From positions 7,812,001 to 7,876,000 of the forward strand of contig NC_003279.8 of NCBI RefSeq assembly GCF_000002985.6: DNA of 64,000 bases, in the 5' to 3' direction. The notes under the pieces were generated by a model, which was not told where the DNA came from, made no database searches, and worked only from the letters and a program-made list of their open reading frames with translations. The first letter of the stretch is position 1. Each line of letters opens with the position of its first letter. Both the position numbers and the translations under genes were made by a program. This document shows positions 54,401-60,264 of the stretch, piece by piece. Source of the stretch: Caenorhabditis elegans (lineage: Eukaryota; Nematoda; Chromadorea; Rhabditida; Rhabditidae).

Positions 54401-57400
54401 ATGTCTGTTGATCCAAACCTTCTTACTCCTTACAAGGTAATATTTTTTATTTATGTTCTTGCCTAATATATGTATTGTTTTAGAATACCGGAGCTGCCAA
54501 CGCATCTCTCCGTCAGATCTCTGAAGATGCTTTCTACGTTGTCAATGAGGTCGTCATGAAGCGTCTTGGACATGTTCCGATTCTCAAGGTAATTTTTGAA
54601 AGTTCCGAAAAGAAAGCAATTGAAAGTGTTTACACTTTTAAATTGTTATAATGGCAACGAGTATAACACTTGAACAAACAAAATGATAAAATTGGGTGGA
54701 AAGTACAGAAAATCATTAAAATTTATTTCGATACATGTACACAAATGTGTTGATTCTAGAAATTGTGATGAATTGGATTTTGATCAAAAACCATGTGAGA
54801 TGGTATCGAAAAAGAAAATTGAAATAAGAAATCACTGAAAAGATTATGTTCTAAACTTTTAATATCGTTTCTTGATTTTCCAAAAAACTTTCAATAATTG
54901 TTTCGTTCTGAAAATTGCTTCTGATTTCATTCCACCAGGCAACAATACAAAAGGGACGAACAAAAACCAAATATTTGCTAATAAGATTTTATTCCATTGC
55001 TTTTCTTTTCTTCTTTCCAATATTTTCTTCTTCACAATAAACAAACTATTGTGTGTAGTGGTAGAGACCGAAGACGGTCTGCGTTTTAGAGGCCAAAAGA
55101 GCGATCTTGAAACCAATTACAAAGCAATAAGAAGGAGGAGGAGGAGGAGGTGATCTCTTATCACTTATCACTGATTGACTCGCTGATATCATATCACACC
55201 ACGAGGACAGAGACGGGGTTTTCCAAACGGCGATTCTCGAACAGCGCAAAGTACGCACTTAGATCTTCTACGACTAGGAACCATAGAATATTCCAGAAAA
55301 GATTCAAGAAACGAGAGCGCACAAAAATGTGAGGGAGGGATTGGCACGCGCCTTGCTTTTTCAAATGGAAAGTGGCTTTTTCAAGCAGGAAAGGGTCCTC
55401 TTGTACAGCATCCGAGAGGGTTGTTTGTTGAGAGTAGCCAACGAAAAACTAAAAATTTGTCTCAAGGGAAAAATATTTATTTGGGAATAATTTTATATGC
55501 TGTCGTATCTACATAAGTTTACTATAGTTTTGGAAAAAATTCACTATCAAGCAATTTCAGCATATAATATTTTTTTTTAAATAATGGAAACAAGTAGTTC
55601 TTTCCGTTCTTTCAAAAATTTCAAAGATAGTAAATTTTGTCGAAATTTAAAGTTCAAAGTCTCAGGCTCTTGTGGCTTATGAGCTCCCTTCTTTTTTCGA
55701 AACTTCTTGATATCTACACGTGGTTGTTTGCAACCTTCTCCATCTTCTCCTCCCCGTGTCTGCGTGCAATTCGGCACAAGTGCCGGGGAGTCGGCTGGAG
55801 CAGTTGGTGTCCCTGTCCCTGACAACTCGGCCCGTAACTGCCTCTGGTCAATCGATCTAGGAGTGCCTGTGAGAGAACGAGATGAAAAAAAAACTAAAAA
55901 TAACCAAGAGAAATACATAAACAAATTTTTTTCCCAGCATGAAAGATTCTCGTGCAGAGGAACCAGTTTCGGATAGCATTGAAATGGAAAGGTCAATGTT
56001 CAAATGATACGATAGACGGTTGTTGGTGTAGGGCAGAAACTGCAAGGACCGGTACAAAATTCGAACTTTGCTTCGAGCGACCTTGTTAGTTTATTGGGGT
56101 AAAGGAAATAAATAATTTAAGCTACAATAACACTACTAATAGAGACTTTATTTTGCTGCAAAATCATTACTTATATATAAAAAAATAATTCCGTTTGTTC
56201 CATAGTTTGTAGTCTATGTAGTCTTTGTAGTCTGTGACGTCACACCCAAAGTCACTGAGAATTGTGGGCGGGGTCTGTCATCCTTCGTGGTGAGACCCAT
56301 CGTGGCGAGACCCATCGTGGCGAAACCCATCGTGGTGAGACCCATCGTGGTGAGACCCATCGTGGCGATACCCATCGTGGCCAGACCCATCGTGGTGAGA
56401 CCCGTCGTGGCGAGACCCATCGTGGTGAGACCCATCGTGGTGAGACCCACCGTGGTGAGACCCGTCGTGGTGAGACCCATCGTGGTAAGACCCATCGTGG
56501 TGAAACCCATCGTGGCGAGACCCACCGTGATGAGACCCGTCGTGGCGAGACCCATCGTGGTGAGACCCACCGTGGTGAGACCCGTCGTGGTGAGACCCAC
56601 CGTGGTGAGACCCGTCGTGGTGAGACCCACCGTGGTAAGACCCAAAATTTTGGCGGGAAATTTAAATTTTCTGTGAAAAATATTTTGGCGGGAAATTTAA
56701 ATTTTCTGTGAAAAATATTTTGGCGGGAAATTTAAATTTTCTGAGAAAAATATTTTGGAGGGAAATTTAAATTTTCTGTGAAAAATATTTTGGCGGGAAA
56801 TTTAAATTTTCTGAGAAAAATTTTTTGGCGGGAAATTTAAATATTCTGTGAAAAATATTTTTGCGGGAAATTGAAATTTTCTGAAAATTCTAAAATTCTG
56901 GAAATCTAGAATCTTCTGGAAATTTCGAAAAAATTCTCGAATGTTCCAGAACTTTCTAGAAAAATCGAGAAAATTCTGGAATGTTCCAGAACTTTCTAGT
57001 AAAATCGAAGAAAATTCTGGAATGTTCCAGAACTCCTAGAAAAATCGAGAAAATTCTGGAATGTTCCAGAACTTTCTAGAAAAATTGGGAAAGTTCTGGA
57101 ATGTTCCAGAACTTTCTAGAAAAATCGAGAAAATTCTGGAATGTTCCAGAACTTTCTAGAACAATTGGGAAAGTTCTGGAATGTTCCAGAACTTTCTAGA
57201 AAAATCGAGAAAATTCTGGAATGTTCCAGAACTTTCTAGAAAAATTGGGAAAAGTCTGGAATGTTCCAGAACTTTCTAGAAAAATCGAGAAAATTCTGGA
57301 ATGTTCCAGAACTTTCTAGAAAAATTGGGAAAATTCTGGAATGTTCCAGAACTTTCTAGAAAAATCGAGAAAATTCTGGAATGTTCCAGAACTTTCTAGA

Positions 57401-59883
57401 AAAATTGGGAAAAGTCTGGAATGTTCCAGAACTTTCTAGAAAAATCGAGAAAATTCTGGAATGTTCCAGAACTTTCTAGAAAAATCGAGAAAATTCTGGA
57501 ATGTTCCGAAAAATTGAGCTTAGAGCTTTAGAAGAGGTAGTTATTTGGGAGTTGATGGGGGATCAAGTCAAGGTACTGTAGTGGTACTATAGGGGTACTG
57601 TAGGTATACGGTAGGGTTACTGTAGTTTTGGAAAATTTGACTTTTTGTCCTTTGAAGAGATATTGGGTTAGGAGTTGGTGGAGGATAATGTCAAGGTACT
57701 GTAGTGGTATTGTAAGGTTACTGTCTTGGCCAAAAAGTAACAGAAAGTTTTCATACTGTCTGTGAATTTTTGAAACATGCATGTCGTAGAAAAATACATA
57801 CATGTAACAGTGCCAGTAAACCGCGTTTTAAGTGTTTCAAGTTTTTTTCATGATGAGAAATTTTTTGAGTGATTGAAGGTATGTGTGTCAAATACTTTTA
57901 ATGGTGCCAGTCGTTGCCCGCGCCGTAGGCGCAGTCAGCGGCTGGTATATATATAATTTTTTTCAGGGAGACTTCCATCTTCTGCCAGCCAAGGTGCAAC
58001 GTTTCATCGCCGAGAAGGCCGAGTTGATGCGTCCACGTGGAATCTTCATCTGCGACGGATCTCAACATGAAGCTGATGAACTTATCGACAAGCTCATCGA
58101 GCGTGGAATGCTCTCCAAACTCGAAGCATATGAGAATAACTACATCTGCAGAACCGATCCAAAGGATGTTGCTCGTGTCGAATCGAAGACCTGGATGGTC
58201 ACCAAGAACAAGTATGACACTGTCACACACACCAAGGAAGGAGTTGAACCAATCATGGGACATTGGCTTGCTCCAGAGGATCTTGCCACCGAGCTTGATA
58301 GCCGTTTCCCAGGATGTATGGCTGGACGTATTATGTATGTCATTCCATTCTCTATGGGACCAGTTGGAGGACCACTTTCCAAGATCGGAATTCAATTGAC
58401 TGATTCCAACTACGTCGTGCTTTCAATGAGAATCATGACTCGTGTCAACAATGATGTTTGGGATGCTCTTGGAAATCAAGATTTTGTTCGTTGTATCCAC
58501 TCTGTTGGACTTCCACGTCCAGTCAAGCAACGTGTTATCAACCATTGGCCATGCAATCCAGAACGTGTTCTCATTGCTCATAGACCACCAGAGCGTGAAA
58601 TCTGGTCTTTTGGATCCGGTTATGGAGGAAATTCCCTTCTTGGTAAGAAGTGCTTTGCTCTTCGTATCGCTTCCAACATTGCCAAGGATGAAGGATGGAT
58701 GGCCGAGCACATGCTTATTATGGGAGTAACACGTCCATGTGGTCGCGAACACTTCATCGCTGCTGCTTTCCCATCTGCTTGCGGAAAGACCAACTTGGCT
58801 ATGCTTGAGCCAACTCTTCCAGGATGGAAAGTCCGTTGTGTCGGAGATGATATTGCATGGATGAAGTTCGGAGAGGACGGAAGACTCTACGCTATCAACC
58901 CAGAAGCAGGTTTCTTTGGAGTTGCTCCAGGAACCTCAAACAAAACTAACCCAATGGCTGTTGCTACATTCCAAAAGAACTCGATCTTCACCAACGTCGC
59001 CGAGACTGCTAACGGAGAGTACTTCTGGGAGGGACTTGAGGATGAGATCGCCGACAAGAACGTCGATATCACCACATGGCTTGGAGAGAAGTGGCACATT
59101 GGAGAGCCAGGAGTTGCTGCTCATCCAAACTCGTAAGTTAACATTGAAAATTATAGTTTGTAAAAGTAATTTTTCAGGCGTTTCGCTGCTCCAGCCAATC
59201 AATGTCCAATCATTCATCCAGACTGGGAAAGCCCACAAGGAGTTCCAATTGAGGCTATCATTTTCGGAGGACGTCGTCCACAGGGAGTACCACTCATTTA
59301 TGAGACTAACTCATGGGAACACGGAGTCTTCACTGGATCATGCCTCAAGTCAGAAGCTACCGCTGCGGCCGAATTCACTGGAAAGACTGTTATGCACGAT
59401 CCAATGGCCATGCGTCCATTCATGGGATACAATTTTGGAAAGTATCTCCAACATTGGTTGGATCTAAAAACCGACTCCAGAAAGGTAATCGATTTTTTCA
59501 TATTTTCAGTAATTTAATGTTAATATTTTTAGATGCCAAAGATCTACCACGTCAATTGGTTCCGTAAGGATTCAAATAACAAGTTCTTGTGGCCAGGATT
59601 CGGAGACAACATCCGTGTTATCGACTGGATCATCAGAAGACTCGATGGAGAACAAGAAATCGGAGTGGAAACCCCAATCGGAACAGTTCCAGCCAAGGGA
59701 TCCATCAACTTGGAAGGACTCGGAGAGGTCAACTGGGATGAGCTCATGTCTGTGCCAGCCGACTACTGGAAACAAGATGCTCAAGAAATCCGCAAGTTCC
59801 TCGATGAACAAGTTGGAGAAGATCTTCCAGAACCAGTTCGTGCCGAGATGGATGCTCAAGAGAAGAGAGTCCAGACATTGTAA
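54401..59883 (+). CDS. pck-2: Phosphoenolpyruvate carboxykinase (GTP)
   Basis: Five exons: 54401-54436, 54484-54588, 57967-59132, 59178-59484, 59533-59883, giving 654 aa. The enzyme converts oxaloacetate plus GTP to phosphoenolpyruvate, CO2 and GDP, feeding gluconeogenesis. The GTP-PEPCK signature is present: the P-loop [13 protein letters not shown] at ~315-327 with the reactive Cys, the metal/kinase-2 motif [25 protein letters not shown] and the C-terminal FPxxNWFR-like [21 protein letters not shown] segment. Codon choice in exon 3 is C-ending and optimal (GGA, CTC, AAG, CCA), as in highly expressed worm genes. The 3.38-kb intron 2 is unusual. It carries three tandem arrays, including heat-shock-element satellite DNA, and a possible nested antisense gene. 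I assigned pck-2 rather than pck-1 from synteny. Confidence 0.96.
55577..55866 (-). CDS. Possible nested antisense exon in pck-2 intron 2
   Basis: A minus-strand open frame of 95 codons from a CTCTCACAG acceptor (exon begins 55866) to a TAA at 55579-55577. An AATAAA lies about 96 bp downstream on the same strand (complement of 55476-55481). The stretch is GC-richer than its surroundings and encodes a polar, basic peptide ([15 protein letters not shown]..., then [17 protein letters not shown]). This looks more like a terminal coding exon than chance. I could not place the upstream exon with confidence. One option is an ATG near 55990 (MLSETG) through a weak GTTCCT donor. The antisense plus-strand frames over the same bases are also open because of the base composition. 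Confidence 0.4.
56285..56648. repeat. 15-bp tandem array, about 24 copies
   Basis: Repeats of GAGACCCATCGTGGT with frequent C/T variants at a few positions (GTGGCGAGACCCATC, GTGGTGAGACCCACC). The unit length is a multiple of three, so frames on both strands stay open and translate as false periodic proteins. On the complementary strand the unit reads ATGGGTCTCGCCACG, identical to the core of the palindromic element at 50357-50644. Confidence 0.95.
56647..56885. repeat. 35-bp AT-rich tandem array, about 7 copies
   Basis: The unit contains TTTTGGCGGGAAATTTAAAT followed by TTTCTGTGAAAAATA, at a 35-bp period (TGGCGGG at 56651, 56686, 56721 and so on). It directly abuts the 15-bp array on the left and the 40-bp array on the right. 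Confidence 0.93.
56941..57510. repeat. 40-bp satellite of heat-shock elements, 14 copies
   Basis: Unit starts (ATGTTCC) fall at 56941, 56981, 57022 and then every 40 bp to 57461, with a partial unit at 57501. From the TTCTGGAATGTTCCAGAAC part through CTTTCTAGAA, each unit holds six alternating TTC/GAA triplets at exact 5-bp spacing. That is a perfect extended HSF-binding element (inverted nGAAn pentamers). From about 57061 to 57420, AAATCGAGAAAATTC and AAATTGGGAAAGTTC versions of the linker alternate, giving an 80-bp higher-order period. It lies in pck-2 intron 2. Confidence 0.96.
57566..57725. repeat. Degenerate TACTGTAG repeats
   Basis: Several near-copies of GGTACTGTAGTGGTACT-like sequence (57570-57620 and 57694-57725) surround a TTTTGGAAAATTTGACTTTT stretch. 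This forms the right flank of the satellite block and may belong to the same mobile element. Confidence 0.55.
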
Positions 59884-60264
59884 TTATTATACCCGTTTTT
59901 CGCGCATTATTTCACGGTTATCTAACAGTTTTCTGTTTGTTTTATTTTTTATTTGAAACGCATCTATTGTTCCTATGTGAGTAGTGCCTTTTCTTCGCTT
60001 CACAACAATGTTTTATTTTTCTCAATGTGTATAGTTACATGATTTTGGTAAAGTAAAAATGAATTGTTTTATGGAAAAATCAGTATCCGAATTTCTCATT
60101 TTATAATTTTTATTTTGAAAAAACTAGAAGGTCACTAACAAGATAATAACTTAGGAAAAAACCTTTACAGAAGTGGAATTTCAAGCGAAACATTTAGAGA
60201 TCAGAAGCCAGTCAGAACAAATGGTTGATAATACATGAAAATAAATAAATAAAAATTTGATTTT
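59884..60264. other. pck-2 and suro-1 convergent 3' region
   Basis: 381 bp between the stop codons of pck-2 (+) and suro-1 (-). AATAAA-like signals occur on the minus strand (TTTATT complement near 59943, 60015). No gene is seen. Confidence 0.5.

Follow-up and report, generated by a model that had tools for sequence, protein, structure and literature searches.

The closest described counterparts of the array analysed here are the heat-shock elements (HSEs) that Caenorhabditis acquired through Helitrons. Garrigues 2019 (PMC6927752) found that 61.4% of genomic HSEs lie within Helitrons, that eight copies of HelitronY4_CE carry more than 100 HSEs, and that this HSE-rich element is bound by HSF-1, with higher binding on heat shock. 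These results agree with the premise of the original prediction, that Caenorhabditis Helitron repeats can carry HSEs and recruit HSF-1. In the same study, Helitron copies upstream of genes accompanied heat induction: nhr-247, with 96 HelitronY4_CE HSEs upstream, was induced 254-fold in N2 and 3.2-fold in QX1211, where the element is absent, and col-52, with 86 such HSEs upstream, was 3.5-fold up. Genes were assigned the HSEs found in the 2.5 kb before their annotated start sites, so an intronic array would be covered only where an internal start site is annotated. The array described below belongs to the same HSF-1-bound family and has HSEs consistent with the reported tandem overlap, whereas the published gene effects are tied to upstream HSEs and the pck-2 copy is intronic. 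Neither 'pck-2' nor 'R11A5' occurs in the main text of PMC6927752.

Two further studies touch the repeat itself. Glauser 2014 (PMC4039745) described a 40-base repeat, AAAATTCTGGAATGTTCCAGAACTTTCTAGAAAAATTGGG, and a 15-base repeat, both part of HelitronY4_CE, and noted that among genes with multiple splicing decisions the element was present in R11A5.4 only, drawing no conclusion from it. By gene name and by the matching 15- and 40-base repeats, this is the same copy as the pck-2 array; there the repeat is given as context for splicing motifs, and 'heat shock' is absent from the main text. The second study (PMC9918286) defined a 40-nt satellite family, Fam_5_40_94 (5_40_94), of which one listed member is part of HelitronY4_CE. 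Its satellite at III:8344363 coincides with an array that we find at C3:8344364-8344683; however, that work dealt with transcription of intergenic satellites and excluded intronic ones. We use the name HelitronY4_CE on the basis of the report on R11A5.4 (PMC4039745) and of this coordinate match to PMC9918286. The kind of element and even the pck-2 copy are already in print. What is added here is the exact anatomy, with both termini of the complete element, a register left intact by duplication of whole units, and a set of related arrays suited to tests of HSF-1 titration or of a condensate scaffold.

An HSE array in the second intron of pck-2

The window, that is, the whole 64-kb stretch of DNA analysed (C1:7812001-7876000; the genome searched comprised 100,286,401 bases in 7 contigs), contains a PEPCK gene that we take to be pck-2 (R11A5.4). 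Its five exons lie on the plus strand at 54401-54436 and 54484-54588, with intron 1 in between, and at 57967-59132, 59178-59484 and 59533-59883, again separated by introns. When joined, they encode a single open protein, and exons 3, 4 and 5 match PEPCK_N and PEPCK_GTP of Pfam with E-values from 1.8e-91 to 1.4e-35. The predicted location in a pck-2 intron is confirmed by the joined exons and the PEPCK matches, which identify the host as intron 2 (54589-57966, plus strand, 3,378 bp). A nested antisense exon had also been proposed, for which we found no support: the 2 antisense ORFs scanned, among 43 ORFs on both strands, gave no Pfam match. No known structured RNA of Rfam reached its gathering score over 54401-59900.

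Tandem Repeats Finder (TRF) delimits a 40-bp tandem array of 15.4 copies at 56892-57507 on the plus strand, with 91% matches; the interval first noted, 56941-57510, takes in roughly 14 of its units. In blocks of ten bases the unit reads TTCTGGAATG TTCCAGAACT TTCTAGAAAA ATCGAGAAAA. It consists of eight pentamers, seven of which are perfect alternating TTC/GAA while the eighth carries ATC or ATT. A search for perfect TTC/GAA ladders with 5-bp steps and at least four pentamers returned 16, all within the array (nine of seven pentamers, the greatest length, two of six, three of five and two of four), which together hold 98 pentamers. From 57044 to 57506 the array keeps a single register, in which perfect pentamers fill 79 of 93 slots; of the other 14, twelve read ATC/ATT and two read GTC, which stands in place of one TTC in each of two units. 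Close to its left border the array slips by one base and then returns to register (ladders at 57010 and 57049). Units with ATCGAG and units with ATTGGG mostly alternate, which gives an 80-bp higher order.

No ladder of at least four pentamers was found in the remainder of the 64-kb window, and in 100 first-order Markov simulations the expectation was 0.08 such ladders per 64 kb, with a longest ladder of 5. An extended HSE consists of at least three alternating nGAAn/nTTCn pentamers in phase, and the array contains such runs throughout its ladders. The first description of the array was correct and slightly understated. Its six alternating triplets per unit hold as to alternation and spacing but not as to number, which is seven in 9 of the 16 ladders because the GAA ahead of the first TTC keeps the same phase. 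The array at 57049-57508 also has a strong 10.0-bp AA/TT periodicity, with a power of 13.5, whereas the intron's left part has 0.7. This signal resembles the A/T periodicity of C. elegans intron DNA.

As 40 is divisible by 5, tandem duplication of the whole 40-bp unit would leave all copies in the same HSE register, and an array in one register would offer HSF-1 trimers an extended stretch for cooperative binding. Cooperative binding of the HSF-1 DNA-binding domain (DBD), by as many as five DBDs, was found for most HSEs tested in PMC9148306, so a long register should load many trimers.

Since HSE ladders are self-complementary, the array RNA could also fold into long double-stranded RNA, and the array might act in the pck-2 pre-mRNA on splicing, editing or small-RNA silencing. 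The 460-nt array RNA has a predicted folding energy of -216.2 kcal/mol, compared to -106.8 (sd 5.65) for 100 shuffles (z -19.4), and, with a cruder shuffle, the antisense strand folds similarly (z -18.4). R11A5.4 is moreover classed among genes with multiple alternative splicing decisions (PMC4039745); however, the transposon was reported in only one such gene and no conclusion was drawn. The fold itself follows from the dyad symmetry of HSEs and is expected in the absence of any RNA function, so it is no evidence of one, and we regard an action at the RNA level as very unlikely. By the cruder shuffle, the 15-bp block described below (z +2.3) and part of the left intron (z +0.2) had no folding excess, the 3′ tail had a weak one (z -3.3), and the 35-bp block folded strongly (z -14.7).

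A bounded Helitron-type element around the array

Helitrons start with 5′ TC, end with 3′ CTRR preceded by a hairpin, and insert between A and T without target-site duplication. A genome search with both flanks of the array returned many copies with sharp edges (only the best candidates were scored, and copy counts are therefore lower bounds), which delimit an element of 1,782 bp at 56164-57945 on the plus strand. On the left a host A is followed by TCATTAC, and on the right GCGGCTGG is followed by a host T. These ends fit a Helitron, with the 5′ TC at 56164 and the 3′ CTGG ending at 57945, and no repeated flank was seen by eye at the pck-2 insertion. A free-standing satellite in the intron is ruled out, as the array sits within this bounded transposon, which PMC4039745 would name HelitronY4_CE. 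Ladders, register and element ends all support the prediction that the array is an ideal extended HSE derived from a Helitron.

All parts of the element are given on the plus strand. The 30-bp 5′ terminus (56164-56193) has 22 genome matches with at most 3 mismatches, its own copy included, compared to 0 for the reversed control. It is followed by a 15-bp tandem block of 24 copies of TCGTGGTGAGACCCA (56285-56644, TRF) and by a 35-bp tandem block of 6.8 copies (56647-56883, TRF), in which a motif search located five exact TTGGCGGGAAA sites. Beyond the HSE array lies a 438-bp 3′ tail (57508-57945), defined by similarity to 26 other loci: 21 align over 429-444 bases at 89-99%, four over 270-291 bases at 94-98%, and one over 403 bases at 76%. 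The tail closes with a terminal hairpin (57906-57945), whose inner stem, GCGCC-GTA-GGCGC, stands 9 nt from CTGG; its fold has a z of -2.85, and 1 of 200 shuffles was as good. The start of the tail, 57508-57725, is about 84% identical to a satellite spaced at about 123 bp that forms long arrays elsewhere, for example at C5:3434630-3441083.

The same insertion context recurs across the family. In the 41 genome stretches examined, 22 of 23 left ends were preceded by A and one by T, and all 32 right ends stood before T; these host bases lay outside the end-search patterns, and the pck-2 copy itself and a few loci whose flanks are duplicated are counted. The right ends read CTGG in 31 of the 32 and CTTG in one, although TC and CTGG were part of the search patterns (1-2 mismatches allowed), which partly predetermines the TC and CTGG counts; the similarity matches have edges at the same positions. 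A genome-wide 3′-end search, with a pattern that included the T, gave 135 matches, two of which, among those listed, end in A.

The Rep/helicase domain Helitron_like_N (PF14214) had 13 listed matches in the genome, 12 on C2 (854-855 kb, 1.97-2.01 Mb and 2.597 Mb) and one on C6 (16.949 Mb), with none on C1; the pck-2 copy is therefore non-autonomous. Ends common with Rep-bearing copies were sought as well: 0 of the 22 left-end matches (at most 3 mismatches) lay at Rep loci, and neither did any right-end match among those listed, of 135 in total. As left-end matches are absent near Rep loci, shared ends cannot name the protein that mobilises the family.

A non-autonomous rolling-circle transposon would thus have inserted whole between A and T of intron 2. 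The two nearest of the copies compared differ from the pck-2 tail at 4 and 5 of its 438 bases, which suggests a fairly young insertion. With a mutation rate of 2-3e-9 per generation, and ignoring gene conversion, its age would be, very roughly, two million generations.

The TTGGCGGGAAA sites of the 35-bp block look to us like E2F (EFL-1/DPL-1) sites, and two regulators may thus have arrays in this element, with predicted HSF-1 sites and putative E2F-like ones. EFL-1 is among the factors that have at least 20% of their binding sites in transposon-derived regions (PMC8896005).

Unit variation, HSF-1 binding and pck-2 expression

Selection on HSF contact bases was assessed in 31 arrays with 632 units, cyclically aligned to the unit, leaving out arrays of fewer than 5 units and two opposite-strand duplicates. 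Non-majority bases had a frequency of 0.041 at the 21 core columns and 0.068 at the 16 spacer columns; the eighth pentamer, with three columns, had 0.179. The core varied less than the spacer, but in these 31 arrays and 632 units this trend was not significant, either by frequency (p = 0.094) or by array-level events (7.7 versus 10.6, p = 0.11). Restricted to A/T columns, p was 0.080 for frequency and 0.055 for events; restricted to G/C columns, it was 0.26 for both. The contrast was larger when the mask was moved by one base than with the true mask in place. Variation was also higher at the G contact columns (0.046) than at the first-A columns (0.016). No significant signal of selection on the HSE core bases emerges, although weak selection may be at work, and the array can be accounted for by duplication of a single HSE-rich unit.

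The pck-2 copy was also considered as an unusually well preserved one, which its HSE density rules out: by pentamers per 40 bp it ranks 12 among 33 rows of at least 5 units (one locus being counted on both strands), and the longest of the arrays examined, on C5, ranks 32.

We conclude that the array is very probably an HSE minisatellite of HelitronY4_CE and a transposon bystander in intron 2 of pck-2. Its presence is most likely due to transposon spread and tandem duplication, not to a need of pck-2. Upon heat shock HSF-1 would load on this copy and leave pck-2 mRNA little affected or unaffected. Judging from the behaviour of the family, we think such loading likely; a real change in pck-2 mRNA brought about by the array is unlikely, and an effect of the array on pck-2 in general is doubtful. 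Genes with Helitron HSEs bear more repressive histone marks (PMC6927752), so by analogy the pck-2 copy may lie in closed chromatin, which would count against HSF-1 binding.

The array could instead be a co-opted enhancer on which HSF-1 activates pck-2, or an internal start site, in heat stress. The inductions that accompany promoter copies of HelitronY4_CE at nhr-247 and col-52 (PMC6927752) point in this direction, and, since promoter copies of the family can have strong activity, an intronic effect is possible by analogy. Gene-body sequence may widen pck-2 expression: in the C. elegans PEPCK study PMC7473531, whose strain list includes R11A5.4(ok2586), a translational fusion was expressed more broadly than a reporter from which coding and intron sequences are absent, and intron 2 is by implication part of that fusion. 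Against activation by the array stand the lack of a significant selection signal on the HSE bases, the ordinary HSE density of the pck-2 copy and the absence of pck-2 from the main text of PMC6927752. Searches joining pck-2, heat shock, hsf-1 and elegans found only unrelated content in the accessible literature, and no report of an array-driven heat response of pck-2 was found there, including the accessible parts of PMC8814026, PMC7115159 and PMC7473531. We therefore hold a co-opted enhancer to be quite unlikely.

When a mini pck-2 gene with its large second intron removed was placed under other promoters, it rescued male mating (PMC7115159), so the array is dispensable for this function. In the same work PCK-2::YFP males were heat-shocked as a control. 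The pck-2 copy offers a clean case in which to ask whether a metabolic gene can be rewired by an HSE array in an intron rather than in a promoter.

The pck-2 array among its genomic relatives

With at most 2 mismatches, a 28-mer of the array has 543 + 479 = 1,022 matches in the whole genome, compared to 0 for its reversed control. The genome stretches examined contain 42 rows of at least three units, two being the opposite strand of another; the row count covers the stretches that were fetched, and at least 19 further places with matches lie outside them. The longest row is the array at C5:7916948-7925028, which spans 8,081 bp with about 201 units and holds 815 pentamers in ladders of at least three. 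A Helitron 5′ end precedes it at 7915798, and the 1.35 kb examined beyond it yielded no 3′ end to match.

Such numbers raise the possibility that the arrays jointly titrate HSF-1, or keep it in nuclear foci, the pck-2 copy being one of many. The 1,022 matches, the 8.1-kb array on C5 and the share of genomic HSEs that falls within Helitrons (PMC6927752) all speak for such a role; a decoy function is already in print as speculation (PMC8896005), and according to a review germ-cell HSF-1 prefers helitrons under heat stress (PMC9737000). However, in two wild isolates where particular Helitrons are missing (absence was confirmed for just three insertions), hsp-70 was similarly induced, and at the Helitron gene col-88 HSF-1 occupancy was below that at hsp-70 despite more HSEs (PMC6927752). 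A joint sink is in our judgement improbable, and, given 1,022 near-matches genome-wide, the pck-2 array could contribute little to it.

A related reading takes the HelitronY4 arrays, which range from hundreds of bases to 8 kb in single registers, as the DNA scaffold of the HSF-1 stress granules of worms; we rate it as highly improbable. Human satellite III, which is pericentromeric, is the HSF1-bound tandem repeat of nuclear stress bodies in heat shock. Binding of HSF1 to this repeat on heat shock is covered by the review PMC9737000, which also states that worm HSF-1 granules re-form at similar places, implying a scaffold. In the accessible literature on nuclear stress bodies, HSF-1, elegans and Helitron, nothing was found that names these arrays as that scaffold. 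The worm arrays, known here from sequence, resemble satellite III as predicted HSF-1-binding tandem repeats; in contrast to the pericentromeric human repeat, they are interspersed, transposon-borne and dense in canonical HSEs. If the scaffold reading were true, they would be a transposon-borne counterpart of human satellite III, and the pck-2 intron would mark a gene pulled into a stress body in heat shock.

Two pairs of copies have identical host flanks, one at C5:6071529 and C5:6091487 (loci L044 and L046) and the other at C3:8336790 and C3:8344985 (L031 and L032), which indicates that some of these Helitrons probably multiplied through segmental duplication.
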